The notes beneath the pieces were generated by a model that worked only from the letters and a program-made list of their open reading frames with translations, did no database searches and was not told where the DNA came from. A DNA stretch of 64,000 nt from Flavonifractor sp. An112 (GTDB taxonomy: Bacteria; Bacillota; Clostridia; Oscillospirales; Oscillospiraceae): the NCBI RefSeq assembly GCF_002161085.1, contig NZ_NFLU01000001.1, positions 1 to 64,000 of the forward strand, given 5' to 3'. Position numbers and translations under genes: made by a program. This document shows, piece by piece, positions 40,758 to 64,000 of the stretch (within the stretch, counting starts at the first letter, position 1; every line of letters begins with the position of its first letter).

Positions 40758-40879
40758 CATGTTCAGGTTTGGGGTATTGTACCTCTGCAGAGGCCGAGAA
40801 GCAAGAGGTTTTTTCGAGTCAGGCGTATCAAATTTTAACACGCCTATACAAAGAATACGGCCTGGAGGAATCGCCCCAG

Positions 40880-41818: not shown

Positions 41819-41847
41819 TTGAAATTCTACAGTACATGTGCTATGCT
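41819..41847 (+). promoter_or_regulatory. Promoter of the defence operon
   Basis: TTGAAA (41819-41824) and TATGCT (41842-41847) are exactly 17 bases apart, about 60 bases before the HTH gene. The spacer and flank contain short dyads (AGTACATGTGCT; CTATG near 41841) that could be the operator for the Cro-like protein. The rest of 41,588-41,907 is AT-rich and shows no gene. Confidence 0.75.
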
Positions 41848-41907
41848 ATGTAAGTATAGTTATATTCATTTGCAAGAGTGTTCGTTTGATCTAAGGGGGA
41901 CGGCTTT

Positions 41908-42117
41908 GTGGAAATTAGTTACAAAAAACTCTGGAAATTACTTGTGGATAACCAAATGAAAAAGAGTGATTTGTATAAAGCTGCAGATATAAGTGGATAT
42001 ACCGCCACAAAACTTAATAAAAATGAACCGGTTCCTTTGGAGGCGTTGATGAGAATTTGTAAGGTATTCCATTGTGATATTGGCGAAATAATGGAATTGA
42101 TTTGGGAAAATGAATAG
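41908..42117 (+). CDS. Small Cro/CI-type HTH regulator
   Basis: A 69-residue single-domain HTH_26-type protein: YKKLWKLLVDNQMKKSDLYKAADISGYTATKLNKNEPVPLEALMRICKVFHCDIGEIMEL. It starts at GTG 41908, six bases after AAGGGGG. It is the first gene of the defence operon and probably keeps it under negative autoregulation. It ends 30 bases before the PAPS-reductase-family gene. Confidence 0.88.
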   Translation: MEISYKKLWKLLVDNQMKKSDLYKAADISGYTATKLNKNEPVPLEALMRICKVFHCDIGEIMELIWENE

Positions 42118-42147
42118 TACTTCAACGCATCGACACGAGGAATACAT

Positions 42148-43911
42148 ATGATTAAATATTTTTGTAAAGAGTGTCAAAAAGAATACTCTCCGGATGATCT
42201 ACAAGGTAGAGACAGCAACTGCCCATATTGTGGGAAAAGAGCTGAAATGCACAGTGAATTATTTTGGTGCCCCACTTGTAATGTCCCTATATACGATTGT
42301 GTTTGCCCCAACTGTGGTACACATGGAAATACTTTTACCTCTGATGCAAGACCCGTATTTCCGGAAGAAAGACTGCTACTTGGTGTGCTTCTTAAGAAAC
42401 CGCTGGCGTATATGACGGAATCAGTTTGGAATGGAACCGGAAATCGTTACTATGTTAATGGAAAGAGACTTCCGTTTTCGCTTACGTCTATAAAAAAAGT
42501 GGATCCAGAAGCCGTGAAAGCAGAGATGGATAAGTATGACCCGAAAGATTACTATGGGGTCTTTAATGAAGAAATGTCTCGGTGGGTTTTGGCAAACGAA
42601 GGTCGGTATCATCACATTAACGATGAAGCACGAGAATACATACAGCACAAAGCTGCAAGATATGAGAATGATGATACTTGCGCAATGTTTGTTTCTTTTT
42701 CTGGTGGCAAGGACTCTACGGTTGTAAGTGATCTAGTGAGAAAGGCACTGTCGAAACCAGATATTATTCACATATTCGGAAATACCACATTAGAGTTTCC
42801 TGAAACATACAAATATATTGAGCGTTTCAAAAAAGACAATCGAAAAACTCCTATGCTTCGCGCCGAAAATAAAGAGCAAGACTTCTTTAATCTCTGCGAA
42901 ACATTTGGGCCGCCCAGTAGATCATTGAGATGGTGTTGTACTATTTTCAAAACAGGTTTTATCGGAGAAAAAATTAAGCGCACTTTTGGGGACAAGAAAA
43001 CAGTTTTAACTTTTTATGGTATTCGTAGAAGTGAATCAACCAGTCGAAATTCCTATGAAAGGTCTTCGGAAGGAAGAAAAATCAGCAAACAATTGGTGGC
43101 CTCTCCGATTATCGACTGGATTGATTATGATATTTGGCTTTATTTACTGACAACAGGGATTGATTTCAACTACGCATATCGTCTGGGTTATACGAGGGTT
43201 GGATGTTGGCTGTGTCCCAACAATACATACTGGGCGCAGTTTTTATCTGCAATATATATTCCTGAATTATCTAAACGTTTCAATGAGATTCTGCTGAATT
43301 TTGCAAAGAAAATGGGCAAACAAGATCCTGAAGAATATGTCAGGGACGGAGGCTGGAAAGCACGTCAAGGTGGTGCTGGTATGGAATTGAGCCAAAATGT
43401 TGCTATAGATTTCAAGCCTTGCGCCACAGATGCAAAGACATTTAACTATGTGCTCAACAAGCCTATTACTCCGGAGATGTATGAGTTCTTTAAGCCGTTT
43501 GGAATCCTCAACTTTGATATGGGAAAGGCGCGCTTAGGGGAGGTTTATATTTTAGATAGCAAAACGAATCAACCAATTATGAAATTACAGGGTCGCGTTG
43601 GGAATAAAGAATTACGAATTTCGATCCTCAACACACCAATTGCAGCTAGAACCAAAACGGTTGAAATTGAGTTAAAATTTAAGTGTCAAATCACAAAGTA
43701 TCAGTTGTGTGCTGGTTGCCATGCGTGTGAAAATGCTTGCAAGCATAATGCAATCAAACTCATAAAATCTGGACCATCAGATACCGATTATCGTTACGAA
43801 ATCGATGAGTCAAAATGCGTACATTGTTTTGAATGTATCAACCATTATACTGGTGGCTGCTATATGCGCAGAGTTCTACTGCCCAGAGGGAAAGGATATT
43901 CTGAAAAATGA
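42148..43911 (+). CDS. DndC/BrxP-like PAPS-reductase-family protein with zinc ribbons and ferredoxin domain
   Basis: A 587-residue protein. Residues 1-60 carry two or three Cys-rich zinc ribbons (CKECQKEYSPDDL, CPYCGKR, CPTC...CVCPNCG). The ATP-pyrophosphatase domain has the PP-loop SGGKDST at 185-191, then Cys pairs in RWCCTIFKT and GCWLCPNN, which in DndC-type proteins hold a 4Fe-4S cluster. Residues about 515-575 form a dicluster-like ferredoxin tail (CAGCHACENACKH, CVHCFECINHYTGGC). By family it should activate the DNA backbone phosphate and help insert sulfur. It overlaps the DUF4007 gene by four bases (ATGA). Canonical DndC lacks the ribbon and ferredoxin additions. The modification function is inferred. 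Confidence 0.85.
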   Translation: MIKYFCKECQKEYSPDDLQGRDSNCPYCGKRAEMHSELFWCPTCNVPIYDCVCPNCGTHGNTFTSDARPVFPEERLLLGVLLKKPLAYMTESVWNGTGNRYYVNGKRLPFSLTSIKKVDPEAVKAEMDKYDPKDYYGVFNEEMSRWVLANEGRYHHINDEAREYIQHKAARYENDDTCAMFVSFSGGKDSTVVSDLVRKALSKPDIIHIFGNTTLEFPETYKYIERFKKDNRKTPMLRAENKEQDFFNLCETFGPPSRSLRWCCTIFKTGFIGEKIKRTFGDKKTVLTFYGIRRSESTSRNSYERSSEGRKISKQLVASPIIDWIDYDIWLYLLTTGIDFNYAYRLGYTRVGCWLCPNNTYWAQFLSAIYIPELSKRFNEILLNFAKKMGKQDPEEYVRDGGWKARQGGAGMELSQNVAIDFKPCATDAKTFNYVLNKPITPEMYEFFKPFGILNFDMGKARLGEVYILDSKTNQPIMKLQGRVGNKELRISILNTPIAARTKTVEIELKFKCQITKYQLCAGCHACENACKHNAIKLIKSGPSDTDYRYEIDESKCVHCFECINHYTGGCYMRRVLLPRGKGYSEK

Positions 43912-44846
43912 ATGAGAAATTGAAAAAAGTCAAACTAAAAGGTAATGAGTCATTTAATTTCCGGGAAGGCTGGCTGCGCAAAGGTATGCGGTGTGTTGCA
44001 GAAAACGAGAACCTTTTCTCTCAAGATGATGTCATGGAGCGGTTAGGTGTAGGTAGTAAAATGGTGAAATCCATCCGATTTTGGCTTCAGGCAACACATC
44101 TTACCGAAGAACGATACACCAATTCTGGAAGAAGTCGCTCTCAATTTATTACAGAAGACTTCGGAGTCATTATCGCAAAATATGATCCATATTTTGATGA
44201 CCTATTTACATTGTTTCTCATACATTACCACATTGTTTCAAATGCATCATTGTGTATTGCGTGGAATATTTTCTTCAACGAGTACGACGGTCAGGACTTT
44301 ACCAAAGAGGACATGATTAATGCTTGTAAGGTGTTCCTAGATAAAAAAATGGATGAAGGATGTACCTATTCCGAAAGTTCCTTTATTGACGACTGTTCAA
44401 GCATCATAAAAATGTACATGAACTCTCGGGCTGGAGAACAGATTTCTAAAAACAGCATTGTTGATACACATCCTGAGGAAAGTCTTGACTGCCCTTTGGT
44501 CGAATTGGGTTTGATCCAAAAAAGCACAAAAACTAAAGGAGCATTCGTTAAGTCTATGCCTACACATGGCGCTTTGGATAAACTTGCAGTGTTATATGTG
44601 ATCGCTCAAAATATCAGCAAAGAAAAAAACTCAGTTAGCATTGATGATCTGTTAAATGCTCCCAACAATATTGGCAGAGTTTTTAACTTATCCAGAGTTG
44701 CTATTAATGAGTATTTGGATCAGTTGCGGATTGCTGGTTATCTCACTATCAACCGAACTGCAGGATTGGACATGGTGTATGTTGAGACCATGATGAAACC
44801 TGAAGACATTATAACGGAGTATTATAAGAAGGCACAGGTGCGATAA
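43908..44846 (+). CDS. DUF4007 family protein (copy 1)
   Basis: A 312-residue protein with the DUF4007 start: FNFREGWLRKGMRCVAENENLFSQDDVMERLGVGSKMVKSIRFWLQATHL. This resembles a winged helix-like DNA-binding region. It is followed by a helical body with FTLFLIHYHIVSNASLCIAWNIFFNEY and a C-terminal HTH-like RVAINEYLDQLRIAGYLTI. DUF4007 genes are known neighbours of PAPS-reductase-type genes in BREX-4/phosphorothioation loci; the biochemical role is unknown. A likely function is target-site recognition for the modification complex (inference). It is coupled to the genes on both sides. Confidence 0.8.
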   Translation: MNEKLKKVKLKGNESFNFREGWLRKGMRCVAENENLFSQDDVMERLGVGSKMVKSIRFWLQATHLTEERYTNSGRSRSQFITEDFGVIIAKYDPYFDDLFTLFLIHYHIVSNASLCIAWNIFFNEYDGQDFTKEDMINACKVFLDKKMDEGCTYSESSFIDDCSSIIKMYMNSRAGEQISKNSIVDTHPEESLDCPLVELGLIQKSTKTKGAFVKSMPTHGALDKLAVLYVIAQNISKEKNSVSIDDLLNAPNNIGRVFNLSRVAINEYLDQLRIAGYLTINRTAGLDMVYVETMMKPEDIITEYYKKAQVR

Positions 44847-44849
44847 ACT

Positions 44850-47800
44850 ATGAAATATGATGAATTAATTGAGGTCAAACAAGGTTTTCAAGCTTCAGTC
44901 AATCTTGAATATGACCTTAATAAAACCGGAAAAGTCCAGAGTTATATCCCTACAGAGCAGTCTGTAAAAGTTCTTGGAGCCTTCTTGCGTTCGTATTATT
45001 TTAATGCGGAAACTCAAGATAGAGCAACTGTTCTGATTGGCCCTTACGGTAGGGGAAAATCGCACCTTTTGTTAGTTCTATCTGCACTAACATCTTTGGA
45101 TCTTCGTGCCCGTACAGCTAAAGAAAGAAAAAAGGCACATGAAATTCAGATGGAACTCTGCGAAAAAATTGAGCGGGTGGATAAAGAAGTTGGCGCACTA
45201 TCAAAAGCAATTGTCGAATCTAAAATTAGAACTTTGCCCGTAATTATTAACAGTAATTCTACAGATATAAATCAGTCGTTCCTTGTGGCGATTAACGACG
45301 CTCTTGTCCAAGCGGACTTGCAGCAACTGCTGCCCACCACATATTTTGACTCAGCTATTACTATGATGGATAAATGGGCAACTAGTTTCCCTGACGCTTA
45401 CACAAAGCTCAAAAAAGAACTTAAGCGTAGAAAAACTACTGTGGAAGAACTTCGTATTGGACTTAAGCAATTTAATCAAAAGTCGTATCGTCTTTTTTGC
45501 AAATGCTATCCTGAGGTCGCTGCAGGAACAGAATTTAATCCATTAACGAACATGGATGTTGTAAAGCTCTATATGGCTGTAACAACGGCTCTTAATGAAC
45601 AAACTTCTTATTGTGGAATTACGATTATCTTTGACGAATTTAGTAAGTTTTTGGAAGCGAACCTTGAAAAAAGCAAAATGCTTAATTTCAAAATCATCCA
45701 AGATATGGCTGAAGCTGCATCACGTAGCAAAGAAGCGCAACTTCATTTTACATGTATTACACATAAAGATATCCTTGACTATTCTTCGAGTGACAGTTTC
45801 AAAACAGTTGAGGGTCGTTTTAAGAAGATTCGCTTTGTAGCTTCTTCTGAGCAAAGTTACGAACTTATTGCTAATGCTATCATTAAGAAAGAACCTTTTA
45901 CAGAGTTCAAAGCCGTTCACGCAGACGTCTTCAAGCATGTGGCAGACAGTTCTGCTATGACGAGCCTTTTTTCAGACTTGTCGTCTGAAACATATAACGA
46001 TAAATTAGTTTACGGATGCTTCCCATTGTCTCCGTTGAGTTCCTTTGCTTTATTGCATGTTAGCGAATTGGTCGGACAAAATGAACGAACTTTATTTACG
46101 TTTTTGGCGCAGCAGGACAAGTATACATTCAGAGATTTTATCGGAAGAGAGCACGAAAATCTTCAATGGATTACTGTTGACTATATTTATGACTATTTCG
46201 AGGAACTTTTTAAAAAAGAAGTCTTTAACGCTTCCGTGCATGGCGTATGGGCAAAAACGGATTCAGCCATTAGACAAGTATCCAATCAAACTCAACTTAG
46301 GATATTGAAAGCGATAGCTATAATCAACATAATTGGCGACGAAAGACTCAAGCCGGTTCCCGCCCACATTAAAGCTGCGCTCCTCATAAAGGACGAAGAC
46401 TTTGAAAAGGGTACTCGTGAATTGTTAAAGAAGCATATTCTGTCACAGCGTGATTCATCTGAATTTGTTCTTCTAACTGCCAATGGTGTAGACGTCCAGC
46501 GTAGTGTGGACAACTATGTGAAGACCTCTTTTTTATCCAAAATCAATGTTTGCGAAACCTTATCCAATGCCTGCGAACTTGGTTATGTTATGCCTCGTGA
46601 ATATAACGATAAGTACAGTATGCTTCGTTGCTTCAAGACAATTTACATGGACGCCAATGCATTTGCTCAATGTAAAAATGGGAATTCTTTGCTGAGTGAT
46701 AATCCGTATGACGGTTTAATCATTAATATTGTCAGCTCAGAATCTTCTGCAATGGAAAAAGCAATTAAACGAATCCAAAGTTTTGCTTCAACTCCTCAGA
46801 TTGTAATTTGCACTACAACTCACCCATTTATGTATGAGAGCCTTCTCAAGCAGTACGAAGCAGTTAAGAAACTGCTGGAAAACAGCGAAGATCCTCACTT
46901 TATTGAGGAATTGGAAATATTCGGAGAAGATATTCAAAAACGCATTCAGAATGCTGTTTATACGATGTATTCTCCGTCCAGCGAATACAGCACGTACTGG
47001 ACTTGTAATGGTAGTTTGGATATTAGTCGACAGGTAGAGTTAAACCACGCAATTTCCAATATTTGTAGCAAATGTTATAACATGACTCCGGTTGTAAACA
47101 ATGAAATGGTTAACAAACGGAAACTTAATACGCAAAACACCAAAGCAAGGGATCTGGTAATTGCATGGATTCTTCAACATGCAGACGATAATTTTATTCC
47201 TTGCATGGAAGGTTCAGGCCCTGAGGTTAGCATCTATAAGTCTGCCTTTAAGAAAACTGGATTAGATATTGCAGCGACTGTCGATGATCCCGGAATGAAT
47301 GAAGTCCTCAGAAAGATCGATGAGTTCATTAGAGGAAGCGAGAAAAAGAAATGTAATTTCCATATGTTGTATCAGATACTGATGTCTGCTCCCTATGGTA
47401 TGCGTAGAGGCATCATTCCCCTATATATTGCCTACACTATGCGCCAATACAAGGAAAGCATCGTTTTGTACTTCAAAGGGAAGGAAATTGAACTTTCTGC
47501 AAGTGCCCTTAGCGGGCTAAATGACAGTCCTGCAGATTATGAGATTCTTATAGAAACTGGTACGGAAGATCGAGACAACTATCTGAATAAGCTTCAGCAA
47601 CTTTTCGAAAAACACACTGATGCCAGAACTCCCAGCATCAATCGTGTTTATACGATTGTGAAGAGCATGCAAAATTGGGCACGTTCTCTTCCTGAATACA
47701 CCAAAAAGTTTAAGCACTATCTAGATAATGGTGAAGAGAAGACACTTGACACTGGTATTGAAACTGTTCGTAATGATCTGCTTCGCTTTGAGATCAATTC

Positions 47801-48434
47801 CCAAGAGTTGATATTCGGAACATGGCTTTCCAAACTAAGCACCAATGAAAACTTAGATGAGTGTTTTGCAGTGGTTAAAGGTGCAAAGGAGTTGCTCGAC
47901 GCACATCTACGCACGTATAGAATGGAACTCAACAAAAAGCTAACTGCAATGTTCATGCCTGGGTATCAAGGGGGGCTTTCTCGTGCAATGATTGCTTGGT
48001 ATAAAAAATTGCCAGAAGCCACCAAGACACATGTTTTTGATGCGGATGCAAACGCACTACTCACCACTGCTGGAACGATAGATTCTTATAATGATGATGA
48101 CTTGTTAGACACTCTCGTTTCCATTTTTGCAGCTATCGCCATTGAGGACTGGAATGATAATTCTGCAGAAGGTTTTATTAAAAATATCTCTGACGCCATC
48201 GGACGGATTAACGAGTATGTTGAATCCAAGTGCAATGGCCAGGACGACAGCCGACTACTTATTACTATAGATGGCGTTCAAGTCGAAAAAACATTCACAG
48301 CAGAGGCGATTTCCCCGCTTGGCAAAACAGCATTTAACAATTTGAAATCCATTTTCGAAGAGTATAATGATGCCCTTGAACCCGATGAGCAGCTTGCAAT
48401 TCTTGCGAAGTTAATCGGAGAAATAATCCACTAA
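44850..48434 (+). CDS. BrxC/PglY-like large P-loop ATPase (1)
   Basis: A 1194-residue AAA+-like ATPase. Walker A is GPYGRGKS at 64-71 and Walker B is IIFDEFSKF with Asp262-Glu263. The N-terminus (DELIEVKQGFQASVNLEYDL) and the layout of an N-terminal ATPase followed by a long helical C-terminal region match BREX BrxC/PglY and DUF6079-type proteins. I see no nuclease motif. It starts three bases after DUF4007. In the absence of DndD it may be the ATPase that powers or gates the modification complex (inference). Confidence 0.8.
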   Translation: MKYDELIEVKQGFQASVNLEYDLNKTGKVQSYIPTEQSVKVLGAFLRSYYFNAETQDRATVLIGPYGRGKSHLLLVLSALTSLDLRARTAKERKKAHEIQMELCEKIERVDKEVGALSKAIVESKIRTLPVIINSNSTDINQSFLVAINDALVQADLQQLLPTTYFDSAITMMDKWATSFPDAYTKLKKELKRRKTTVEELRIGLKQFNQKSYRLFCKCYPEVAAGTEFNPLTNMDVVKLYMAVTTALNEQTSYCGITIIFDEFSKFLEANLEKSKMLNFKIIQDMAEAASRSKEAQLHFTCITHKDILDYSSSDSFKTVEGRFKKIRFVASSEQSYELIANAIIKKEPFTEFKAVHADVFKHVADSSAMTSLFSDLSSETYNDKLVYGCFPLSPLSSFALLHVSELVGQNERTLFTFLAQQDKYTFRDFIGREHENLQWITVDYIYDYFEELFKKEVFNASVHGVWAKTDSAIRQVSNQTQLRILKAIAIINIIGDERLKPVPAHIKAALLIKDEDFEKGTRELLKKHILSQRDSSEFVLLTANGVDVQRSVDNYVKTSFLSKINVCETLSNACELGYVMPREYNDKYSMLRCFKTIYMDANAFAQCKNGNSLLSDNPYDGLIINIVSSESSAMEKAIKRIQSFASTPQIVICTTTHPFMYESLLKQYEAVKKLLENSEDPHFIEELEIFGEDIQKRIQNAVYTMYSPSSEYSTYWTCNGSLDISRQVELNHAISNICSKCYNMTPVVNNEMVNKRKLNTQNTKARDLVIAWILQHADDNFIPCMEGSGPEVSIYKSAFKKTGLDIAATVDDPGMNEVLRKIDEFIRGSEKKKCNFHMLYQILMSAPYGMRRGIIPLYIAYTMRQYKESIVLYFKGKEIELSASALSGLNDSPADYEILIETGTEDRDNYLNKLQQLFEKHTDARTPSINRVYTIVKSMQNWARSLPEYTKKFKHYLDNGEEKTLDTGIETVRNDLLRFEINSQELIFGTWLSKLSTNENLDECFAVVKGAKELLDAHLRTYRMELNKKLTAMFMPGYQGGLSRAMIAWYKKLPEATKTHVFDADANALLTTAGTIDSYNDDDLLDTLVSIFAAIAIEDWNDNSAEGFIKNISDAIGRINEYVESKCNGQDDSRLLITIDGVQVEKTFTAEAISPLGKTAFNNLKSIFEEYNDALEPDEQLAILAKLIGEIIH

Positions 48435-48446
48435 GGAGTACCCAAT

Positions 48447-49604
48447 ATGATTTATCTGGACAACGCTGCTACCACATTTCCAAAGCCAGAATGTGTGTAT
48501 GACAAAGTAAATACTATTCAACGCACTATTGCCGTCAATGTCGGACGTGGTGGGTATAGTGTCGCCTCTGAAGCAATGCACATCGTAGATGAAACCAGGG
48601 TACTTATGGCAACGTTTGTGGGAGCAGTGAGTCCGGAATGTGTTGTCTTCACCCCATCTGCTACTATTGCAGCAAACGAAATAATTTACGGTCTGGAATG
48701 GGATTCGTACAAAAATGTCTATATAACCCCTTTTGAACACAATGCCATTGCACGCCCTTTGAATACGATAAGTGAGCGGTACGGAGTAAAAGTTCGATTA
48801 TTGCCTTTTGATTCTCAAACACAGTCTATTGATATGGTCGCTCTTGAGCAGACTTTTGCTCTGAATCCTCCCGATTATGTTTTTATAAATCATGTTAGCA
48901 ATGTAACGGGGGCGATTATACCAATTAGAACTATCGCAGAAAAAGCGAAAGAATACTCATCTGTGGTTATTGTCGATGGTTCTCAATCTATTGGTATCCT
49001 TCCGCTCAATTTAAAAGAAACAGATATTGATTTTCTCATTTTTGCCGGGCATAAAAACTTATATTCATCTTGGGGAATTGGTGGTTTTATTGCAAATACA
49101 AACTATAAGATTCACCCTGTCCTTGCAGGAGGAACGGGATCGGATTCATTAAATCTCAAAATGTCCAACACTTATCCAAACGGATTTGAATTAGGCAGCC
49201 CTAATATTATTGCTATTGCAAGTTTGAATGAGTCACTAAAATGGCTAAACAAGGTGGGCATCAATTGCATCGAAGAAAAGAAAAACAGTCTTACCCAAAA
49301 GTTGAAATGTGGATTGCTTGAGGCAGGAGCAACAGTGTATTTACCATCTGGCGATGCAAAACATACCAGCGTTGTTTCGTTCAACATCCCCGGGTATGAG
49401 CCCAATGAGGTGGGGTCAATCCTGAACGAGGATTTTGACATTGCGGTACGTGCTGGTTTTCACTGTGCCCCTTATATTCATGAGTTGATAGGCACACTTA
49501 ATACTCACGGTACTGTAAGGGTAAGTGTAGGATACTTTAACACAGAGGCTGATATCGACGCCCTTATAGCCGCTGTAACAGATATTATGGGGGATCAAAT
49601 ATGA
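48447..49604 (+). CDS. Cysteine desulfurase (DndA role)
   Basis: A 385-residue class V aminotransferase fold enzyme. The N-terminal signature is MIYLDNAATTFPKPECVYDKV, the PLP Lys is Lys203 in AGHKNLYSSWG, and the persulfide-forming Cys is Cys340 in RAGFHCAPYIHELIGT. This matches the cysteine desulfurase family (group with SufS/Csd-like active sites). It should mobilise sulfur from cysteine for the PAPS-reductase-family protein, as DndA/IscS do for DndC. It overlaps DptF by four bases, placing sulfur supply inside the defence operon. Confidence 0.9.
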   Translation: MIYLDNAATTFPKPECVYDKVNTIQRTIAVNVGRGGYSVASEAMHIVDETRVLMATFVGAVSPECVVFTPSATIAANEIIYGLEWDSYKNVYITPFEHNAIARPLNTISERYGVKVRLLPFDSQTQSIDMVALEQTFALNPPDYVFINHVSNVTGAIIPIRTIAEKAKEYSSVVIVDGSQSIGILPLNLKETDIDFLIFAGHKNLYSSWGIGGFIANTNYKIHPVLAGGTGSDSLNLKMSNTYPNGFELGSPNIIAIASLNESLKWLNKVGINCIEEKKNSLTQKLKCGLLEAGATVYLPSGDAKHTSVVSFNIPGYEPNEVGSILNEDFDIAVRAGFHCAPYIHELIGTLNTHGTVRVSVGYFNTEADIDALIAAVTDIMGDQI

Positions 49605-51379: not shown

Positions 51380-51392
51380 GGAGGGATTGGGT

Positions 51393-55900: not shown

Positions 55901-58516
55901 CTCGAAAACTCAAAAAGTAGGATTATTGGTTTCACTACTGGTGAGGGAAACTATGGCGAACTGAATGTAACCGTTTCTGCAAGAAAGGATATTCTTGTTG
56001 ATATTAAGCATATGCTTCAGAAGCGCATAAAAGAGAAGTTTTCAAATTGGGATGAAGATCGTCTGGAAAAGGCGGCAGAATACTGTGTAGAAGAGTTGTC
56101 AAAGTATATGGACGGTAGCCGTATTCTCAAAGCGCTGAATCCCTATGACTACGAGATTCATAGTTTCCTTGCGTATATTCTCACCATGCAGATGCTTGGC
56201 CTTACAGAAGCCAATGATAATTATGCTGTCAGAGCACTTATAAGTCTAGATTCTTATAAACACTGGTTTGCCGAAGATGATGAACTTAGTAAGGACAATA
56301 AGCGTCCCGATTTTATGCTTATTGAAATTCCCAAAACCGCGCATAATCTTGACCCTGCACAAAATCTGAACATTCACATTAAGATCATTGAATGTAAGAT
56401 GGGATTCCAAAACGATAATCACATAGTAAAGGCACAAACCCAGTTGGAAAAGGGTCTCCGTACAATGAGCGCAAATTGGAACCCTAATAACCAAAGTATC
56501 ATGCACCGATATTGGTTGAATCAATTATACCGCGCAATTATTTTCTCTCCACTCAATCTGGAGAATACTTCTGATCAGTACGAGACCATCCGAAATAAAA
56601 TCTATGGCATCCTAAGCGGTAAATACCAGATCGAATGGAGTGGAGATATTTTCGCATTTTGGCTGGATTCCCATTCGGAGACGCCTGAAGAATGGGAAAT
56701 CGAATCACCACTTTCTGATGAACTATCTATGGCTGGAATTACTTTGAATGAAATGTTTTGCCATAATTGTGGCCAGATGTATATTCAGAAAATGCTCCTT
56801 CCACCTGAAGAGCGTACCTCCATTTTTACTCACAATGAGATTATTTATCCCGAAGTAGATATGGAGTCGGATGAAGAGGAATTAGATATCAACGATGAGA
56901 TAACGTCCCAAACCGTAATAGTTGCTACAGGGGAAACCATTCCGAGTACAGCGAAAGTATATCTTCCTTTCTTAAATTATCTGAGTGACAGGAAAGACCA
57001 TACGAGGCACGAATCGTTACAATGGTTTTCTTCTACTTTTGGTATTTCGCTGGATGACCAAAGGCTCACCTATGACAACGGACACCGCAAATGGGAAACT
57101 GTTCTCGATGCAACTATAACATTTTTCAGAAAACAGGGACTTTTAGCGAACAGTGAGAAGGGCTCTTTCCATTTAACTGAAGTAGGGTATAACTTTTCAG
57201 AAGTTGCTGAATCTCTTCTCAACGATCGGTCTTTTGAGACTGCAATTGTAGTATATAGGGAAAATCTCAAAAGCACTGAATCGGACAATCGCATTGATGA
57301 CAACGAGGTATGCGATTTCAATGACAATACCACAACTGAAGAGGAACCCATTATCGCAGAGGATACATCGGCTCAGTCGTCAAAGCCCTTGCTGTCTGAT
57401 GTAAGATTCCTTATCGGCGAGGATTTAAGAACCAAAGAAAAATACTATTGGGAGTTTGGCAATAAAAGCCTCAACAACCGCCATCTTCTTATTAACGGTA
57501 ATTCTGGCTGTGGTAAAACCTATTGTATCCAGACACTGCTTATGGAAATGGTTCGTGCTGGCGTATCCGGAGTCGTATTTGACTATACGAGTGGTTTCAC
57601 TCCGGATAAACTGGATCCATTGTTTATTCAGGAACTTGGTGAAAAAGTACAGCAACGGGTTGTTTATCTTGATAAGATTCCTGTTAATCCGTTTGCTCGT
57701 CAAATCGTAAAGGTTGGCGGATCAGAAGGTCTTGAAAAGGATGTTTCTATTGCAACAAGAATTGCAAATGTATTTACTACAGTATACGGATTCGGCGGGC
57801 AGCAGAAAAGTGCTCTCTACAAGGCAATCAAAAATGGTCTCCAGCATCATGGGGAAGCAATGTCTTTTTCTTATCTTGAGGACGAGTTGAATGATGTAAG
57901 CGCAAAGCAAGCTGAGACTGTTTTGAGTAAAATTCAGCCATTCCTTGATTTGGAGCCTTTTGCGGAGGATGAAACGTTTACCTGGGGATCGATTCGAGAT
58001 AGTAACGGAATGGTCTATATTATGCAGCTTGATGGTTTTGACCGCCCCACACAGTTGCTTTTGACAGAATTATTGTTGTGGGATATTTGGAATTACTGTG
58101 TACAAAACGGAAATGAGGAACATCCTTTTGTAATTGTGCTTGATGAGGCACAGAATCTTAGTCATGATGCTGAATCTCCAAGTGCTAAGTTCCTAACAGA
58201 GGGCCGAAAGTTTGGTATCTCTGCATGGTATGCAACGCAGTTTATGAAGCCGCAGCTTTCAGATGATGAAATCCAGAGACTTCAGCAAGCAGGACAAAAA
58301 CTCTATTTCTGCCCTCCTGATGACGGTGTAATGACAGTTGCCAAGAACATTGACATCGATGCTCAGGGAGCAAAAGAATGGGCGCCAAAACTTAAAACTC
58401 TGAAGAAGGGTGAATGTGTTACCTGTGGGAATATGGTTAGAAACGGTAAATGGGCTAAGTACGAACCCAAAATTGTGAAGGTTACAAGTTTTCAGGAGAG
58501 ATTAAACCATGACTAA
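52913..58516 (+). CDS. dptH: DptH-like restriction protein with C-terminal HerA-type ATPase
   Basis: An 1867-residue protein. The N-terminal 1100 residues are without known motifs. At about 1131-1161 a PD...ECK arrangement (RPDFMLIEI, then IKIIECKMG) resembles a PD-(D/E)xK nuclease core. The C-terminal 350 residues form a HerA/FtsK-like motor: Walker A INGNSGCGKT at about 1527, Walker B FVIVLDEAQN at about 1740, and an Arg-containing AWYATQFMKPQ sensor segment. This is the effector of DptFGH restriction. It overlaps the next DUF4007 gene by eight bases. Confidence 0.82.
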   Translation: MRQLITVITNQILHQIKTNEINMVRLESFDNPIIYKSVCDTLRVSAKVSNFVAKLTLEKYNQFLAAENANWMQALMYLHKGTNMVYDENHPAIYAQNSYVDFEQAITKWRNESPNMPENQTSLILLMGTEAAPDDAGSLKDTTFVISPREIIALLNANYSDWFADILAENSFDNDESRKAIHTLYRALFSCININIFKLSEFIDSLHNMRFASCQELIGYICETLNVVWGVPSIVSTKYVPKASNLSKGNLTSAKIITSAIKFIERADDIPSASALKKIKEKFEKYALDKDIDYTAPFPTDTALFPDYNDFEDCVINFMCGMDLKTNRTKLLAVDYAIIEQIIGTKLPAKTSEKAPVVTGAPMDAYSRIFLDIANLFHNTYSSYPTHFCVRVDRISLSDCIDEQKEETFRNVCNFLGGILAFFDSCNLVNEGSQVTFSYENDMDPFDFTNHKYVIDRVRSTGKWGDPCKIHFTVKASNDDKAHSYEFKWAFSPYAPWLNAFSYLGDVLFRQGDIYTLPTLVHCKNIQDYLRCESEDEFYAQLNQIDDEVRQQEHVRAVHKYFSGDKAEAIFDKLCSDFKNFAITLTDHGMYSALDSLRILVKTYTDLMQYIHSNYSNFTDVQKEKIILLLNSFTIASNSDVIEKCDMGEVLFPAYHPVMLEKIDAQQLFLRDGFAELATSKIESNTRHEKVIGKLANLVQLSSITQGADFVIKRSSKNLTCKSMWEYFGVYFGSDTSSDLISGNAFSSNIVTDDEDASAMLHATPISGIVVRNVMDYIRTFPARVDGLNVAFIAPSNMQHIVAAIHSIAKQLESNDTSATINLRIVCLNSKKNSATYLKRWLDSYFDDERSVTVNTFLRNITITDKSDTEALEKVLQDCDLCFNYDILKAADIWFDRTGDEIIDKEQAKFPMTFTPDTISATHGMSRKVSISQFQFLAAKEQTQANFIVTNPYSQEGIYRTFRTLELTDIQNHIIELSHNACKWVVCVDPAIDRKMLENSKSRIIGFTTGEGNYGELNVTVSARKDILVDIKHMLQKRIKEKFSNWDEDRLEKAAEYCVEELSKYMDGSRILKALNPYDYEIHSFLAYILTMQMLGLTEANDNYAVRALISLDSYKHWFAEDDELSKDNKRPDFMLIEIPKTAHNLDPAQNLNIHIKIIECKMGFQNDNHIVKAQTQLEKGLRTMSANWNPNNQSIMHRYWLNQLYRAIIFSPLNLENTSDQYETIRNKIYGILSGKYQIEWSGDIFAFWLDSHSETPEEWEIESPLSDELSMAGITLNEMFCHNCGQMYIQKMLLPPEERTSIFTHNEIIYPEVDMESDEEELDINDEITSQTVIVATGETIPSTAKVYLPFLNYLSDRKDHTRHESLQWFSSTFGISLDDQRLTYDNGHRKWETVLDATITFFRKQGLLANSEKGSFHLTEVGYNFSEVAESLLNDRSFETAIVVYRENLKSTESDNRIDDNEVCDFNDNTTTEEEPIIAEDTSAQSSKPLLSDVRFLIGEDLRTKEKYYWEFGNKSLNNRHLLINGNSGCGKTYCIQTLLMEMVRAGVSGVVFDYTSGFTPDKLDPLFIQELGEKVQQRVVYLDKIPVNPFARQIVKVGGSEGLEKDVSIATRIANVFTTVYGFGGQQKSALYKAIKNGLQHHGEAMSFSYLEDELNDVSAKQAETVLSKIQPFLDLEPFAEDETFTWGSIRDSNGMVYIMQLDGFDRPTQLLLTELLLWDIWNYCVQNGNEEHPFVIVLDEAQNLSHDAESPSAKFLTEGRKFGISAWYATQFMKPQLSDDEIQRLQQAGQKLYFCPPDDGVMTVAKNIDIDAQGAKEWAPKLKTLKKGECVTCGNMVRNGKWAKYEPKIVKVTSFQERLNHD

Positions 58517-59342
58517 CAAATCTTCCTTGGAGTTTCACGAGACCTTTAAGCCAGAAATACCTTATATCTCAAAAATACTCAAACTAGCATCAGAAAAGTA
58601 TTCTGGCACAAAGTATGAAATCAGCGATATTAGTGGAATCCCTACCGGTGAACAAAAAGGAAAAGTGGAACCGCACATTAAGTATGCTAGTTTTATGGGG
58701 TTAATTAACTTCTCATGTGACAAAGGTATTTACGCCTTATCACTAACGCCTTTGGGCGAAGAAGTCTTCGTGCAGGATCCGTACCTGCACGAAGACCTCA
58801 CGCTCTGGATTTGCCACTATTGTATGACAAGAAAAAATTTCGGTGCTCCACAATGGTCGTATTTAATACAGGAAGCACACCCAGGCATTGGAGAATCTCT
58901 TAGCCAGGATCGATTATTTAATTTGGCCAATAATTGGTGTGGAATTGCTGTATCAAGTTTGAACAAGAAAGTATTTTCTGTTGTTAGAGGCAGCTATACA
59001 GACGGGATTTTTTCTCGTTTAGGACTTATTGAATGGGGTAGTTTAATCTCCTTCATTGAGCAGACTGAAAAGATGGATTTAACATATGTATATTCTTTTG
59101 CACTGCTTGACAGTTGGGATCGCTTATATCCAGGCAAACGAGAAATTACCGACTTTGATCTGAAAGACGGTATTGGTTTTGGAAAAATATTTGGTTTCAA
59201 TGAGGATGAATGCAATTATGTTATCGACTCGCTAAGTGACGAAGGCTTACTCACAGTAAACCGACAGTTATATCCAGCAACAATTATTCGAACCGCTAAT
59301 GTGGAAAGTGTAATTCCCTTGTTGTATAGCCGTTTGTTGTGA
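58509..59342 (+). CDS. DUF4007 family protein (copy 2)
   Basis: A 277-residue protein with the DUF4007 N-terminal pattern LEFHETFKPEIPYISKILKLA and ISGIPTGEQKGKVEPHIKYASFMGLI (winged-helix-like). A central LTLWICHYCMTRKNFGAPQWSYLIQE and a C-terminal HTH-like DECNYVIDSLSDEGLLTVNRQ follow. It is clearly distant from copy 1 but shares the domain order. It lies between the restriction genes and the second large ATPase, mirroring the arrangement of copy 1. It probably gives site or mark recognition to the restriction arm (inference). Confidence 0.75.
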   Translation: MTNKSSLEFHETFKPEIPYISKILKLASEKYSGTKYEISDISGIPTGEQKGKVEPHIKYASFMGLINFSCDKGIYALSLTPLGEEVFVQDPYLHEDLTLWICHYCMTRKNFGAPQWSYLIQEAHPGIGESLSQDRLFNLANNWCGIAVSSLNKKVFSVVRGSYTDGIFSRLGLIEWGSLISFIEQTEKMDLTYVYSFALLDSWDRLYPGKREITDFDLKDGIGFGKIFGFNEDECNYVIDSLSDEGLLTVNRQLYPATIIRTANVESVIPLLYSRLL

Positions 59343-59357
59343 GATAGAGGAGGCAGT

Positions 59358-62300
59358 ATGAAGGTTAAAGATTTAGTCAGCTTTAGTAAGGAAACGTTCT
59401 TCAACGGTGCTGTTCAAACCGAATGGTTTTACGATGCACAAAAAGCAAAAACCGTTGCGGAAAGTTATGTTTTCCATGGACCTAAATACTATGGTGTATC
59501 TGCTTCAGATGTTAAGGCAGGAGAACATCGCCTGATGGATACTGCCTCCTTTGCTCAAACCATTGCGCACAAACTCTACTCCCCTACCCCTGGGAACAGT
59601 TTTGTGATGACTATTGCAGGATACGGTACCGGTAAATCACATCTTGCAGTGTGTCTTGGAACTTTATTTTCCAGTACAGGTGCACTCGCAGAATCTATAG
59701 TATCCAATATAGCATCTGCCGATGAAGAGATTGGTACTTATATCAGACAGAACAATGTGAAGAAAAACCTTGTTATCGTTCTTAATGGAATGAACAACTT
59801 TAACCTGGACGCTGAAATTTTGCGTTGTGCAAGGCTATCACTTTCACAAAACGGGATTAGCGATGAACTGTTAAAAAAATTAACAAAATCTTATGACGTT
59901 GCTCGCCATTTTGTCAATCGGACTTTTTCTATATATCAAAACCAATTTGAAGAATGGGCTCTTAAGGTCGGCATAAACATCAGTGGACAAGCACTGAAGG
60001 ACTATTTTGTATCCCGAGTGGAAAATGATAGCCAAGTACTTACCACAATCAATAATGTTTATAAAGAAGTGAACGGAGACAGCATTGCATGGGACCGTGG
60101 ATTATCTGCGGGAGATGTTTTGTTAACTCTTCAAAAGGAATTGTGTGGAGATGGAAAGCCATTCAATAAGGTGCTCTTGTTATTCGACGAGTTTGGACGA
60201 TACATTGAATACACTGCTGCAAATCCAGCAATTGCAGGTGAAGCAGCGCTTCAGCAGATATTTGAAGCAGTTCAGTCGGCAAATGGAAATATTGTATTCG
60301 TTGGATTTATTCAAAGTGAGTTAGAAGCGTATCTTGCAAGAATTGAAAAAACATCGAATATCACTCGCTATATTGCTCGATATCGGACAGCAAGCGAAAA
60401 TCTTTTTTTATCTTCAAACTTTGAAACGATACTTGCTAATGTTTTGAAAAAATCAAACCCGGAGTTTAACAGAGTGGTCGGCGGATCGGTAGGTAGGTAT
60501 GAAAACTATCACCTAAAGATCAAACATGCCCTTACAAGATGGGATCGTACATCGACTAAAAAGAGTGTATGGATAACTGACGAAGTCTACAAAAATGTTA
60601 TCTTAAACGGGTGTTATCCGCTACATCCTATTACTGTTTGGCTCTTATCCAGTTCGCATCAATGGATGCAGCAACGATCAACACTGGCATTTGCGTCAGA
60701 GATGTTTGATGCAGTAGCTGAAGCAGAAATAGATAGTGCATTTTTGCCATATGTTTATCCGTATCAAATCGTTGATTCGGGAATCTTTGGCGAAATGCTC
60801 AACTCTGAAGAGAAGGGTTTAGTATCAAGTCAATATTGTATGCTTTATCGAGACATCCTCGTAAAGGTTGGTGATAAGCTTTCAGAACTTGAAAAGATAG
60901 TTCTAAAATCTGTGCTTGTTGTCAATATAGGAAGGATGGCATTCTACGATAAAGTTGATGCTTTAAAAGCAATTCAACTGTGTTCCAATTGCAAAGAAGA
61001 TGAAGTACAGCATGCGCTGAAATCGCTTGAAGAAATGCACGGTGTTGTTGCATTTGATGACCATGCAAAAACATATGACTTGATTGCAGAGGCCAATGGA
61101 TTCAATGAATTCAAACGTATCTTTGCAAGATATCGTATTGGAGTAAAGACATCTATTGATGACATTGATGAGCCCGCGATAAAACTCATGGCATTAGATA
61201 CTCCTGTAGAAACATCATTTGCACAGGAACACCATATCTCATCAACAGAATGGATGTTTAACAAACAACTGCTTGACTGTCGTGAGATTAGTGAAAATTA
61301 TTTGCGAAATGCAATTCGGAACATCACTGAAAATTGCGATGGTGAAAAAGCAAGAGGCTTACTGATTTATGCCTATTGTTCAGAAAATATTACTTCAGAG
61401 ATTAACCGGTTAAGTCGGCTTTATCGGGAACTTGATTTGGCGAATTTTCCAATTATTATTTTGTTTTTGGATGACCATGATAAGGAAATGCTTATAGCCT
61501 TGACTATAAAAAAGTCGTTGCAGAAATTTTCTGCTACGGATAAAGAAAGATTCCGCAAACATATTTCCGATCAGTTGCGTACACAGAATACTAAACTTTG
61601 TCGAAAATTCACAAATTGTGTTTCACAGAGAAATATGATTGGCATAAACGGGCTGGAAAAGTATTCCATGCGCATTAATGCATTATGCTCGAAAAAGTTT
61701 GATATGCTCTACACAAAAGCAGTTCCGTTTGTTTTTGATGGATTTGAGAACAAATCGAAGACTCAGGCGAAAACTACACTTGCGCAAGTATGTTGTTACT
61801 TGTACAATCGACTTTTGATGAACCAACAAGGGTACAACGCACTGGCATCAAAAGATAAAAATCGTGTAAATTCAGTATTATCTGTATCAGCGCCGTTTGC
61901 CTGGAAAGTTTATGATAATCGATGCCAGCTTGTTGAGCCCGGCAATCCAGTCATTGTAGAGATTATTTCAGATGTTGTTAGCGTACTTGATGACGGAGAA
62001 CGTCATTCTGTATATCAACTATTTTATAAATTTGTACAGGCTCCCTATGGAATGAATGAAAACTCTATCTCATTGTTGGTATCGTATTTCATTGCATTCC
62101 AAGAAAATCGATACTTCTATTATTATGGCATGGAAAGATTAATGCCAAAACATTGGAGCACAGATAAAGGGAAATTAAAGGTTCCTGAATTCAAGAAGAT
62201 TATTATACAAAAGAATGCAAATGCAAACATAGACGTTGTAGCGGAATTATGTGATAAAATAATGAGTAATACGGATGTTTCTAATTGTGCTAATTTAAAA

Positions 62301-63554
62301 AATAATCTTACTATTCTTGTGGCCCAAGAAGGCGAAACGGAGTCTAATCAGTACAAAATTGGCCAAGCTATTACATATTTGGATGCGGGAATACGGCTTG
62401 AAAAGAATTTTACTGACCAGTTTGTAAAAGTTCAAAAACATATCGACATCCTGAAGAAACAATTTAGAATTATACCTCTTATCAAGATATTTGATTTGAT
62501 ACCGGAGATTTCTGATCCTATCGAGGAAGGATTGGGGTATGTCTATACTGAAAAACAAAAAAATGATGTGCTTAAATGTCAAGCCGTGATAGATCAGATG
62601 CTTACTAAATTTTATCTTCCTACGCTGAATGCTCTGGATTTTAAACTTGAGGAGCTCTCTGAGAATCAAAAGAGGTATAGACGTGCAGCAGAGATTCTAA
62701 GAGAGCATAATTATGGTGACTATGCAGATGCCACAGAAAAGCGTTTGATCGAAATTGAAGAGTCTCTTCGAGCAAAGCAAAAATATGAAAGTTCCTTTGT
62801 AGAATGTGAAAAAGATCTTACTCAGAGTAAGAATCTCTTCAAATTCGCAGATTGCGAAGAGATGGAAGCTAAATTGGATGGATGGGTTGAATTTTTTACT
62901 AAAACTAATGAATTGCCAAACGATATTATTGCCCCCCTCAACACACGCATAAAGAACGCAAAATACGAGCTACGCCATAAGAAAGAAGAACTGTTGAATG
63001 AATATGTAACTGTAATTGATAATGCTTCTACAGCCAAAACTGTTATACAGCTTCGCCAGAGCACCTTAAAAATTTCAATGTTAATGCAAATGCAGCTTGG
63101 CTCAGATTCTGAACAAATGCTCCTTAAAGTGCAATCTGACATAGATGATGCAATTCATCAAATTGAGACACTGCCACATAATCTTGATAATTTGAATCAG
63201 TACATCGATTCGTTAAATCACATACAGCATAGGTGCTTGAATGCAATAAAACACGGAGCAAACACATTACAGACAGATTTAATTCAAAAACAAACTATTT
63301 GGGTAAAGCGATATGTTGAGGAAGCAGAACGTAGTTATAAGGGTATGTCAGCCATAGAGTGTCAAAATTGGCTTGATAAAACCGCATCTCATCCAACATA
63401 CCTCCAAGCATCCATTGTCGAGAGATTGATTAAGATAAGAGAACTTGTTGAATCACAATTACATAGCTGTCGAATTGAAGGGTTATTGACAATGTATGAC
63501 AAGTTATCAGAAAGTGAAAAACAAACATTTAAAAAACTACTTTTAACTCGTTGA
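59358..63554 (+). CDS. BrxC-like giant P-loop ATPase (2)
   Basis: A 1398-residue ATPase. Walker A is GYGTGKS at 88-94 and Walker B is LLLFDEFGRY with Asp277-Glu278. The N-terminus (VKDLVSFSKETFFNGAVQTEWFYD) precedes the ATPase domain. The last 400 residues are strongly helical, probably coiled coil (LNALDFKLEELSENQKRYRRAAEIL and onward). It is paralogous in layout to ATPase 1, about 200 residues longer. The gene ends the operon, eight bases before the 32-bp palindrome. Confidence 0.8.
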   Translation: MKVKDLVSFSKETFFNGAVQTEWFYDAQKAKTVAESYVFHGPKYYGVSASDVKAGEHRLMDTASFAQTIAHKLYSPTPGNSFVMTIAGYGTGKSHLAVCLGTLFSSTGALAESIVSNIASADEEIGTYIRQNNVKKNLVIVLNGMNNFNLDAEILRCARLSLSQNGISDELLKKLTKSYDVARHFVNRTFSIYQNQFEEWALKVGINISGQALKDYFVSRVENDSQVLTTINNVYKEVNGDSIAWDRGLSAGDVLLTLQKELCGDGKPFNKVLLLFDEFGRYIEYTAANPAIAGEAALQQIFEAVQSANGNIVFVGFIQSELEAYLARIEKTSNITRYIARYRTASENLFLSSNFETILANVLKKSNPEFNRVVGGSVGRYENYHLKIKHALTRWDRTSTKKSVWITDEVYKNVILNGCYPLHPITVWLLSSSHQWMQQRSTLAFASEMFDAVAEAEIDSAFLPYVYPYQIVDSGIFGEMLNSEEKGLVSSQYCMLYRDILVKVGDKLSELEKIVLKSVLVVNIGRMAFYDKVDALKAIQLCSNCKEDEVQHALKSLEEMHGVVAFDDHAKTYDLIAEANGFNEFKRIFARYRIGVKTSIDDIDEPAIKLMALDTPVETSFAQEHHISSTEWMFNKQLLDCREISENYLRNAIRNITENCDGEKARGLLIYAYCSENITSEINRLSRLYRELDLANFPIIILFLDDHDKEMLIALTIKKSLQKFSATDKERFRKHISDQLRTQNTKLCRKFTNCVSQRNMIGINGLEKYSMRINALCSKKFDMLYTKAVPFVFDGFENKSKTQAKTTLAQVCCYLYNRLLMNQQGYNALASKDKNRVNSVLSVSAPFAWKVYDNRCQLVEPGNPVIVEIISDVVSVLDDGERHSVYQLFYKFVQAPYGMNENSISLLVSYFIAFQENRYFYYYGMERLMPKHWSTDKGKLKVPEFKKIIIQKNANANIDVVAELCDKIMSNTDVSNCANLKNNLTILVAQEGETESNQYKIGQAITYLDAGIRLEKNFTDQFVKVQKHIDILKKQFRIIPLIKIFDLIPEISDPIEEGLGYVYTEKQKNDVLKCQAVIDQMLTKFYLPTLNALDFKLEELSENQKRYRRAAEILREHNYGDYADATEKRLIEIEESLRAKQKYESSFVECEKDLTQSKNLFKFADCEEMEAKLDGWVEFFTKTNELPNDIIAPLNTRIKNAKYELRHKKEELLNEYVTVIDNASTAKTVIQLRQSTLKISMLMQMQLGSDSEQMLLKVQSDIDDAIHQIETLPHNLDNLNQYIDSLNHIQHRCLNAIKHGANTLQTDLIQKQTIWVKRYVEEAERSYKGMSAIECQNWLDKTASHPTYLQASIVERLIKIRELVESQLHSCRIEGLLTMYDKLSESEKQTFKKLLLTR

Positions 63555-63561
63555 TCGAAAA

Positions 63562-63593
63562 TTACCGGCCACAGCATATGCTGTGGCCGGTAA
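63562..63593. promoter_or_regulatory. Perfect 32-bp palindrome before the WYL gene
   Basis: Positions 63562-63577 and 63578-63593 are exact inverse complements with no loop (centre CATATG). It has no T-run, so it is not a standard terminator, and its right end overlaps the first bases of the AAGGAGG ribosome site of the WYL gene. It could be an operator for the WYL dimer or an mRNA hairpin hiding the ribosome site. Confidence 0.75.
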
Positions 63594-63603
63594 GGAGGAT
63601 GCT

Positions 63604-64000
63604 ATGGAGAACAGTGCAAAAATTAGAATATTATATCTGATGGAGATCCTCAATAGGTTTTCTGATGAGGATCATCCCTTGTCTACAAGTCAAATTATTC
63701 AAAAGCTTGAGGATCTATATGGAATAACAGTTCATCGTACTACTGTGCCGAAAGACATTTCTATTCTTCAATCATACGGTGTAGATATTATTATAATAAC
63801 ATCTACACAAACAAAGTATTATGTTGGAAAACGAAAATTTGAGGAGCCTGAGCTCAAGTTACTAATCGATGCTATTGAGGCATCAAAGTTTATTACAGCA
63901 GAAAAAAGTGAAGTCCTCATTTCTAAAATCAAGGAACTTACCAGCGAGTATAAAGCTCAGACACTTAAGCGGAATATGTATGTAACGAATCGTATCAAGC
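63604..64000 (+). CDS. WYL-type regulator (N-terminal part, truncated by window)
   Basis: The frame is open from ATG 63604, after AAGGAGG, to the window edge (132 residues). It begins with a winged HTH (ILYLMEILNRFSDEDHPLSTSQIIQKLEDLYGITVHRTTVPKDISILQSYG). It continues with the KKFEEPELKLLIDAIEASKFIT-type segment and MYVTNRIK seen in the WYL regulator at 19.2 kb, so the WYL domain is expected just outside. WYL regulators such as CapW and BrxR control defence islands; here it is placed after, not before, the operon. Confidence 0.82.
   Translation, partial: MENSAKIRILYLMEILNRFSDEDHPLSTSQIIQKLEDLYGITVHRTTVPKDISILQSYGVDIIIITSTQTKYYVGKRKFEEPELKLLIDAIEASKFITAEKSEVLISKIKELTSEYKAQTLKRNMYVTNRIK

Follow-up and report, generated by a model that had tools for sequence, protein, structure and literature searches.

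A second DUF4007-ATPase pair travels with the restriction arm of an SspABCD-SspFGH-type operon in Flavonifractor sp. An112

Why would a predicted sulfur-based DNA restriction operon carry two copies of the same two-protein design? The question is raised by a locus in the first 64,000 nucleotides of Flavonifractor sp. An112 contig NZ_NFLU01000001.1, the whole stretch that we analyzed and refer to as the window. Nine large open reading frames (ORFs), all on the + strand between 42148 and 63554, encode in order SspD, SspB, SspC, SspA, SspF, SspG, SspH, a second DUF4007 protein, and a second giant ATPase; the ORFs, PADLOC, and Pfam bear out the gene order and the domains that an earlier sequence-only reading had described. 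We favor, at a probability of about 0.55, the interpretation that the operon is an SspABCD-SspFGH-type phosphorothioate restriction-modification system in which the last two genes, here termed pair 2, specify a restriction-side DNA scanner that loads or licenses SspFGH. The genes and domains on which the argument draws are these.

42148–43911, + strand: SspD, BrxP-like (PF01507, 4e-32; PF12838, 3e-7; BrxP, 3e-85; SspD, 2e-15; DndC, 1e-11)
43908–44846, + strand: SspB, the first DUF4007 protein (PF13182, 9e-78; SspB, 5e-58; crystal structure 6juf, 2e-19)
44850–48434, + strand: SspC, AAA+ ATPase (SspC, 1e-122; BrxC, 1e-30)
48447–49604, + strand: SspA/DndA-like cysteine desulfurase (PF00266, 7e-80; SspA, 2e-38; DndA, 3e-38)
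49601–51379, + strand: SspF, P-loop NTPase (SspF, 1e-23; Walker A at residue 61)
51387–52916, + strand: SspG, TTG start (SspG, 2e-24; weak MAD7 match, 4e-6)
52913–58516, + strand: SspH with DptH-type HerA motor (SspH, 7e-22, residues 970–1285; DndH, 2e-76, best stretch 1454–1779; DUF87; Mrr_N)
56309–56443, + strand: predicted PD-(D/E)xK nuclease motif of SspH (D1133, E1160, K1162, Q1177)
57404–58504, + strand: HerA/FtsK-clade motor domain of SspH, residues 1498–1864 (DUF87, 1e-8; DptH structure 7es4, E 0.0067)
58509–59342, + strand: second DUF4007 protein (PF13182, 8e-9; weak SspB model match, 4e-9)
59358–63554, + strand: second giant AAA+ ATPase, ATPase-2 (weak SspC model match, 7e-13)

The core of this operon, with gene families assigned from PADLOC models and Pfam, is of an already known kind. 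SspB and SspC are adjacent, SspD and a cysteine desulfurase accompany them, and SspF and SspG lie next to the writer genes, as in the published SspABCD-SspFGH system; the kinship of SspC with BrxC and of SspD with BrxP is also in print, in the parts of the literature available to us. The SspD protein combines a CxxC-rich N terminus, a PAPS reductase domain (residues 180–358, with the motif SGGKDS), and a 4Fe-4S domain (residues 521–565). It also matches PRK13795, and the BrxP model fits it better than the SspD model does. That same BrxP model is covered by two separate genes, at positions 20–509 by SspD and at 665–774 by SspB, as an unfused pair. Kinship between the writer and BREX type 4 is seen in SspD, through its BrxP (3e-85) and SspD (2e-15) matches. 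The accessible text of PMC12839542 describes SspB, SspC, and SspD as homologous to BREX type 4 parts and reports the ferredoxin-type PAPS reductase arrangement in BrxP and a subset of SspD proteins, calling its role unclear. Within SspC, Walker A lies at residue 64 and Walker B at residue 259, and Pfam adds a match to DUF6079 that is weak (1e-7) and strongest over the N-terminal 118 residues. The portion of PMC10853773 that we could consult describes the SspC class as Orc/Cdc6-like and SspB as a triple winged helix.

The restriction arm is of the Ssp type as well. The sequence-only reading had named its first two genes DptF and DptG; by profile they are SspF and SspG, and neither matches the DndF/DndG (DptF/DptG) models at E 0.1 in PADLOC. 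Pfam gives only subthreshold AAA hits for SspF, and no Pfam model matched SspG. The recommended check of the operon proteins against family profiles came out mixed, in that SspB, SspC, SspD, and SspA match their families but the supposed DptF and DptG do not. The broader claim of a phosphorothioation-type writer coupled to an FGH-type restriction arm was sound. SspF is 592 amino acids long in the window and 1331–1524 in five other pair-2 systems, and in one of the surveyed genomes (G759; L052:6242-10816) it forms a single fusion protein with NERD nuclease and protein-kinase domains.

In SspH, the residues D1133, E1160, K1162, and Q1177, which we read as a predicted PD-(D/E)xK nuclease (the naming is ours), are present in all 17 aligned SspH/DptH proteins, as are the Walker A lysine and the Walker B D-E of the motor. 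In a tree of residues 1–1440, SspH of the window groups with other pair-2 SspH proteins (support 99/98), and these lie with canonical SspH apart from DptH (100/100). In the motor tree, by contrast, it falls among the pair-2 and DptH motors, which a branch with 100/100 support separates from those of canonical SspH, and the trio formed by the window and its two closest relatives is joined to DptH at 90/93; the motor is 43% identical to that of Priestia DptH over 417 columns. On these trees and alignments, the resemblance of SspH to DptH is confined to the HerA motor and the putative nuclease motif that both contain, and the DptH-like label proposed earlier holds for the C-terminal motor and fails for residues 1–1440. 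An active REase and captured HerA motors are reported for DndH in the available part of PMC10853773. An AlphaFold model of residues 895–1292 (mean pLDDT, the predicted confidence score, 46) was too poor to settle the fold and had no Foldseek match at E 0.001.

By sequence, pair 2 is kin to SspB and SspC and yet a class of its own. With hhalign, the second DUF4007 protein aligns to the SspB family (99.1%, 8e-19) and ATPase-2 to the SspC family (99.9%, 3e-35). No Pfam model matched ATPase-2; its Walker A (residue 87) and Walker B (residue 273) motifs are in place, and the Walker residues are invariant in 8/8 aligned proteins. Plasmids of Thermomicrobium roseum (NC_011961, L012) and Pseudanabaena galeata (NZ_CP112879, L013) carry SspBCD together with distant relatives of both pair-2 proteins. 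In blastp, the second DUF4007 protein of the window matches those of T. roseum (4e-18) and P. galeata (8e-16), whereas SspB proteins score no better than 3e-6; ATPase-2 matches the second ATPase of T. roseum at 7e-26, with SspC proteins no better than 8e-13. A single branch separates second from first copies in the DUF4007 tree (13 and 22 rows, support 99/96), and another does so in the ATPase tree (11 and 22 rows, 86/86). Profiles built from SspFGH-linked pair 2 beat SspB profiles narrowly on the second DUF4007 proteins of T. roseum and P. galeata (61 versus 56 and 74 versus 58 bits) and beat SspC profiles clearly on their second ATPases (173 versus 97 and 155 versus 115 bits), which match no PADLOC family at 0.01. 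The AlphaFold model of the second DUF4007 protein is poor (mean pLDDT 51) and has SspB structures 6lb9/6juf as top Foldseek matches (E 4e-5, TM 0.27); we attribute the poor quality of this model and of the SspH model to the use of only three sequences. A Protein Data Bank search with a five-row profile of the same protein reached SspB only at a nonsignificant E of 0.46, and ATPase-2 alone retrieved nothing significant there.

Pair 2 recurs, and it recurs in one place. The recurrence survey recommended by the sequence-only reading succeeded: a scan of genome contigs yielded two relatives, one in a Clostridia metagenome-assembled genome (L003) and one in Anaeromassilibacillus senegalensis (L004), and the complete nine-gene order is found in both genomes, G786 (L003 with L087) and G092 (L004 with L086), with the last gene broken in G092. 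SspB, SspC, SspD, SspG, and the second DUF4007 protein of these loci are 66–82% identical to those of the window, and ATPase-2 is 58% identical in L003. We extended the search to 398 genomes of the host's phylum and to two samples of its order (394 and 384 genomes). The second-DUF4007 profile matched 25 of the 398; in 8 the match was strong and covered nearly the full length (E 1.4e-26 or lower), and in 17 it was weak (6e-13 to 1e-3). We read the context in the seven strong genomes besides the window's own and in 4 of the 17 weak ones. In every strong context the second DUF4007 gene lies no more than 38 bases from SspH and is followed by ATPase-2, which in one genome (G465) runs off the contig; in the four weak contexts (G432, G449, G569, and G770) the best match is an SspB adjoining SspC. 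Counting the window, L003, L004, and the seven surveyed genomes, pair 2 was found in 10 SspFGH loci and directly follows SspH in each of them. Of the nine whose contig holds the whole ATPase-2 gene, all but one (A. senegalensis) have it at full length.

The converse search, with SspG, points the same way. Its profile matched 10 of the 398 genomes, nine of them strongly, and all eight pair-2 genomes fall among these ten and make up eight of the nine (hypergeometric 3e-15, a value that ignores kinship). The ninth strong genome, G449, has a canonical SspH and no pair 2 within 14 kb downstream. In the tenth (G604, L078) the genes are divergent and match SspF, SspG, and SspH only weakly; we would guess them to be a MADS-like system. 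In the order, a three-row second-DUF4007 profile matched 6/394 genomes (2 strongly) and SspG 2/394; with the wider profile, SspG was found in 2/384, both with pair 2. Seventeen plasmid records matched SspG, and we read six of them along with a seventh locus, from Azospirillum, that came from an SspC search. Each of these seven canonical SspFGH loci has one DUF4007 gene and one SspC gene, and no pair 2 was found in the eight single-pair SspFGH stretches formed by them and G449. The SspH motor is canonical in all seven of the eight that were placed in the tree, the Agrobacterium protein lying outside it. Nor did pair-2 profiles find a pair 2 in four one-pair writer loci without FGH (L014, L024, L064, and L065). 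In two of these, from Treponema saccharophilum (L014) and Trichormus variabilis (L024), the Ssp-type writer is followed by genes for a DEAD helicase, an ATP-binding protein, and a phospholipase-D-like protein instead of SspFGH.

The history of pair 2 follows SspG more closely than it follows the writer. In the SspG tree, the proteins from pair-2 systems lie on one side of a branch (10 rows versus 8, support 100/99). The SspC tree is arranged differently: G759 pairs with T. roseum (100/100); G527 groups with the window, Treponema, G432, G449, G569, and G770 (100/99); and G462, G665, G635, and G570 stand together beside cyanobacterial SspC (100/98). Between G527 and G462, the second DUF4007 protein is 54% identical, ATPase-2 50%, and SspG 53%, against only 26, 21, and 24% for SspB, SspC, and SspD. 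Over six systems, the second DUF4007 protein shows rank correlations of 0.82 with ATPase-2 (3/720 permutations) and 0.78 with SspG (4/720), compared with 0.56 for SspB (50/720), 0.45 for SspC (102/720), and 0.26 for SspD (215/720). Over nine systems the values are 0.91 for SspG, 0.88 for ATPase-2 (eight systems), 0.76 for SspC, and 0.57 for SspD. From the SspG and writer trees, the identities, and the correlations, we conclude that pair 2 has been co-inherited with SspG and the restriction arm while writer genes were swapped beneath them. A similar exchange is apparent on the plasmids of P. galeata and Pseudanabaena ABRG5-3, which have the same neighbors and writer genes, as judged from annotation tables rather than alignment: the former carries a second pair with PglZ-BrxL and the latter SspFGH instead.

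The chemistry, target recognition, and loading role that we infer would fit together as follows. Sulfur would be mobilized by SspA and transferred by SspD, whose ferredoxin domain may supply electrons; SspB would find the site, and the SspC ring would scan or open the DNA, leaving single-strand phosphorothioates in host DNA. In Vibrio anguillarum FF-93 the phosphorothioate lies at 5'-CCA, and SspFGH damages DNA that lacks the mark, according to the accessible text of PMC8092258. In the window, damage to unmarked DNA would likewise fall to SspFGH, with the predicted PD-(D/E)xK nuclease and HerA-type DNA pump of SspH. Pair 2 would repeat the SspB-SspC design on the restriction side, as an additional AAA+/winged-helix complex that scans DNA, inspects sites, and loads or licenses SspFGH, chiefly the HerA ring of SspH. 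It is the position of such a design next to a HerA motor that suggests a scanner or ring loader.

Several observations weigh against this interpretation. The DptFGH loci of Priestia and L. brevis share this motor type but lack pair 2, which implies that such a motor does not by itself require a loader, and the distant relatives of pair 2 in T. roseum and P. galeata stand beside PglZ-BrxL, which implies that SspFGH is not the only partner of the pair. ATPase-2 of A. senegalensis (L004:10850-14845) is frame-broken into at least three pieces, through either decay or sequencing error. The ATPase class split is supported at only 86/86; the second copies of T. roseum, P. galeata, and G432 sit on long branches, and their placement in the trees is uncertain; and the second DUF4007 proteins of T. 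roseum and P. galeata match SspB models in PADLOC at 3e-17 and 2e-18, compared with 4e-9 for that of the window. Six systems are a small sample, and over nine a correlation of the second DUF4007 protein with the writer emerges as well (SspB, r 0.74, 1/5000; SspC, 0.76), which we attribute to the close trio of the window, G786, and G092.

Pair 2 might instead be a second writer specificity that shares SspA and SspD, marks a second motif, and so widens protection. Its homology to the writer pair and its intact Walker motifs suit such a role, which we nevertheless consider unlikely: pair 2 tracks SspG rather than SspD (r 0.78 versus 0.26), invariably sits behind SspH when SspFGH is present, and is missing by its own profiles from the four FGH-less writer loci. 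A brake that stops SspFGH from acting on host DNA, or in the event of writer failure, would explain why pair 2 tracks the FGH arm and would answer the toxicity of SspFGH alone in unmodified cells reported in the available text of PMC8092258. That eight single-pair SspFGH stretches manage without pair 2, and that related pairs adjoin PglZ-BrxL, makes this a poor prospect in our estimation. An ordinary SspABCD-SspFGH system with a neutral duplication and no distinct role for the second pair is improbable; pair 2 is an old, separate class, and its ATPase is full-length in eight of nine loci, against which stand a core identical in kind to the published system (PMC8092258, as far as accessible), the existence of single-pair SspFGH loci, and the broken gene of A. 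senegalensis.

The view offered by the sequence-only reading, in which a BREX-4-like writer replaces DndBCDE ahead of a Dnd restriction arm, now seems scarcely credible to us. The BrxP model is indeed the best match of SspD (3e-85), and the HerA part of SspH does group with DptH. The view is weakened by the trees, which place residues 1–1440 of SspH with SspH and not DptH, and by the SspF and SspG genes, which match no DptF/DptG model; the same arm, moreover, is paired with short-SspD writers in G759, G462, G665, G635, and G570. PADLOC and Pfam family searches matched none of DndB, DndD, and DndE among the operon proteins, and no DndBCDE set has been replaced. We rejected the candidate of a new BREX-4/Dnd hybrid because the arm is SspFGH and its pairing with SspBCD was published in 2021 (PMC8092258, in the part seen). 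Returning to the scanner and loader that we prefer, we also venture, at somewhat less than even odds, a broader proposal: phosphorothioate defense would use two DUF4007-AAA+ machines, SspB-SspC to write and a second, portable one to read DNA and load or license an effector. In Clostridia and other members of the phylum to which the host belongs, this second machine would be coupled to SspFGH with a motor of the DptH type; elsewhere, its distant relatives would be coupled to PglZ-BrxL.

The borders and surroundings of the operon include three further features.

41819–41847, + strand: promoter-like site, TTGAAA-17-TATGCT (weak, at chance-level site density)
41908–42117, + strand: small gene, GTG start, 69 amino acids, separate and upstream of SspD
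63583–64000, + strand: helix-turn-helix (HTH)-WYL regulator gene, running on to contig position 64587 (PF13280, 2e-12)

The operon had been proposed to start at 41908, where the separate 69-codon gene lies; the PAPS-reductase gene itself starts at 42148. The proposed promoter at 41.82 kb exists as a site, but 41500–42300 holds 4 such sites on both strands versus 3.1 expected from shuffled sequence. Overlaps of 4–8 bases, said to mark most junctions, are present at four of eight, the other four being gapped (in order: −4, +3, +12, −4, +7, −4, −8, and +15 bases). To our eye, and without a family search, the 69-amino-acid protein looks like an XRE-type HTH protein; it has a partial match (52.6% over 38 residues) upstream of SspD in L086 and none in 12 other loci tested, L087 included. 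The HTH-WYL gene starts 28 bases downstream of ATPase-2 and has no match in L003 or L004.

G+C content is 32–42% per 500 bases in a block at about 41.5–64.5 kb and 53–66% per 2 kb before 40 kb, which suggests that the operon block was acquired horizontally. Inverted copies flank this block on both sides (window 39637–40191 and contig 64782–65337; 71% identical, 560 bases). Compared with stretches of three genomes of the same genus, left-flank matches stop at 39604, except for a piece at 40560–40868 in G289, and an empty-site search found no match there for contig positions 63501–74000. Downstream of the operon are a tyrosine integrase (L002:13884-15464, +) and a reverse transcriptase (L002:15705-17417, −), which give the region a mobile look. 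Just beyond the window, a 1025-amino-acid protein (L002:7291-10368, −; contig 67291–70368) matches PF05183, RNA-dependent RNA polymerase, at 9e-13; bacterial proteins of this type are often two-barrel phage-type RNA polymerases. An archaeal host, suggested by the PRK13795 match of SspD, was considered and rejected: the archaeal and bacterial models alike found no SSU rRNA in the assembly, but the operon's two close relatives are in a Clostridia metagenome-assembled genome and A. senegalensis, and G092 belongs to the host's order. A phage origin was rejected as well; a search of 50,697 phage records returned nothing for ATPase-2, and neither of two viral-contig scans gave a confirmed pair 2.

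Pair 2, which the sequence-only reading merely listed, is the part of this operon that looks new: a search of open-license literature, preprints aside and papers in part, brought up no account in which SspFGH is accompanied by a second DUF4007-ATPase pair. The finding bears on how FGH-type arms discern marked from unmarked DNA and on how they come to be placed on it. The Discussion of PMC8092258, in the part accessible, gives as one of two possibilities for telling self from nonself that "more elements are involved". Pair 2, traveling with the restriction genes while writers change, offers a direct candidate for an additional element of this sort and, if our interpretation is right, would be an unrecognized component of sulfur-based restriction. 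The data also suggest two SspFGH subtypes, one with pair 2 and a DptH-type motor and one with a canonical motor and no pair 2.

Among known systems, the closest is SspABCD-SspFGH of V. anguillarum FF-93 (PMC8092258), which has the same writer set and, by profile, the same SspF-SspG-SspH arm. Judged by the available description of FF-93 rather than by its sequence, the window differs in its long, BrxP-like SspD with a 4Fe-4S tail, in the DptH-type HerA motor of its SspH, and in the second DUF4007-ATPase pair after SspH, no such pair being named in that description. BREX type 4 (brxPCZL; PMC12839542, as far as seen) shares BrxP/SspD, DUF4007/SspB, and BrxC/SspC homology, a ferredoxin-type PAPS reductase, and a cysteine desulfurase, whereas in the window DUF4007 is unfused to the PAPS reductase and restriction is assigned to SspFGH. 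Neither PglZ nor BrxL was found among the operon proteins or, by their own profiles, in contig 60001–80000, the family search of window ORFs beginning at 37.8 kb; BREX-related capture, which combines PglZ with DUF6079, DUF4007, and HerA, differs from the operon in that PglZ. DndFGH/DptFGH (PMC10853773, in the part available) has the D-ExK-Q residues and HerA motor type in common with SspH of the window, and differs in that the DptFGH loci examined (L015 and L016) have no DUF4007-ATPase pair, while the operon is without DndBCDE by family searches and its SspF and SspG match no DndF/DndG model. In T. roseum and P. galeata the effector is PglZ-BrxL, not SspFGH, and identity to pair 2 is only about 19–27%; the P. 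galeata PglZ is annotated as hypothetical and was placed by position. Both plasmids have a two-pair, BREX-4-like layout, with a short gene between the pair and PglZ-BrxL and a cysteine desulfurase in addition. Within the host's own phylum, G432 (L063 and L081) encodes SspD-SspB-SspC, another distant DUF4007-ATPase pair, PglZ, BrxL, and SspA.

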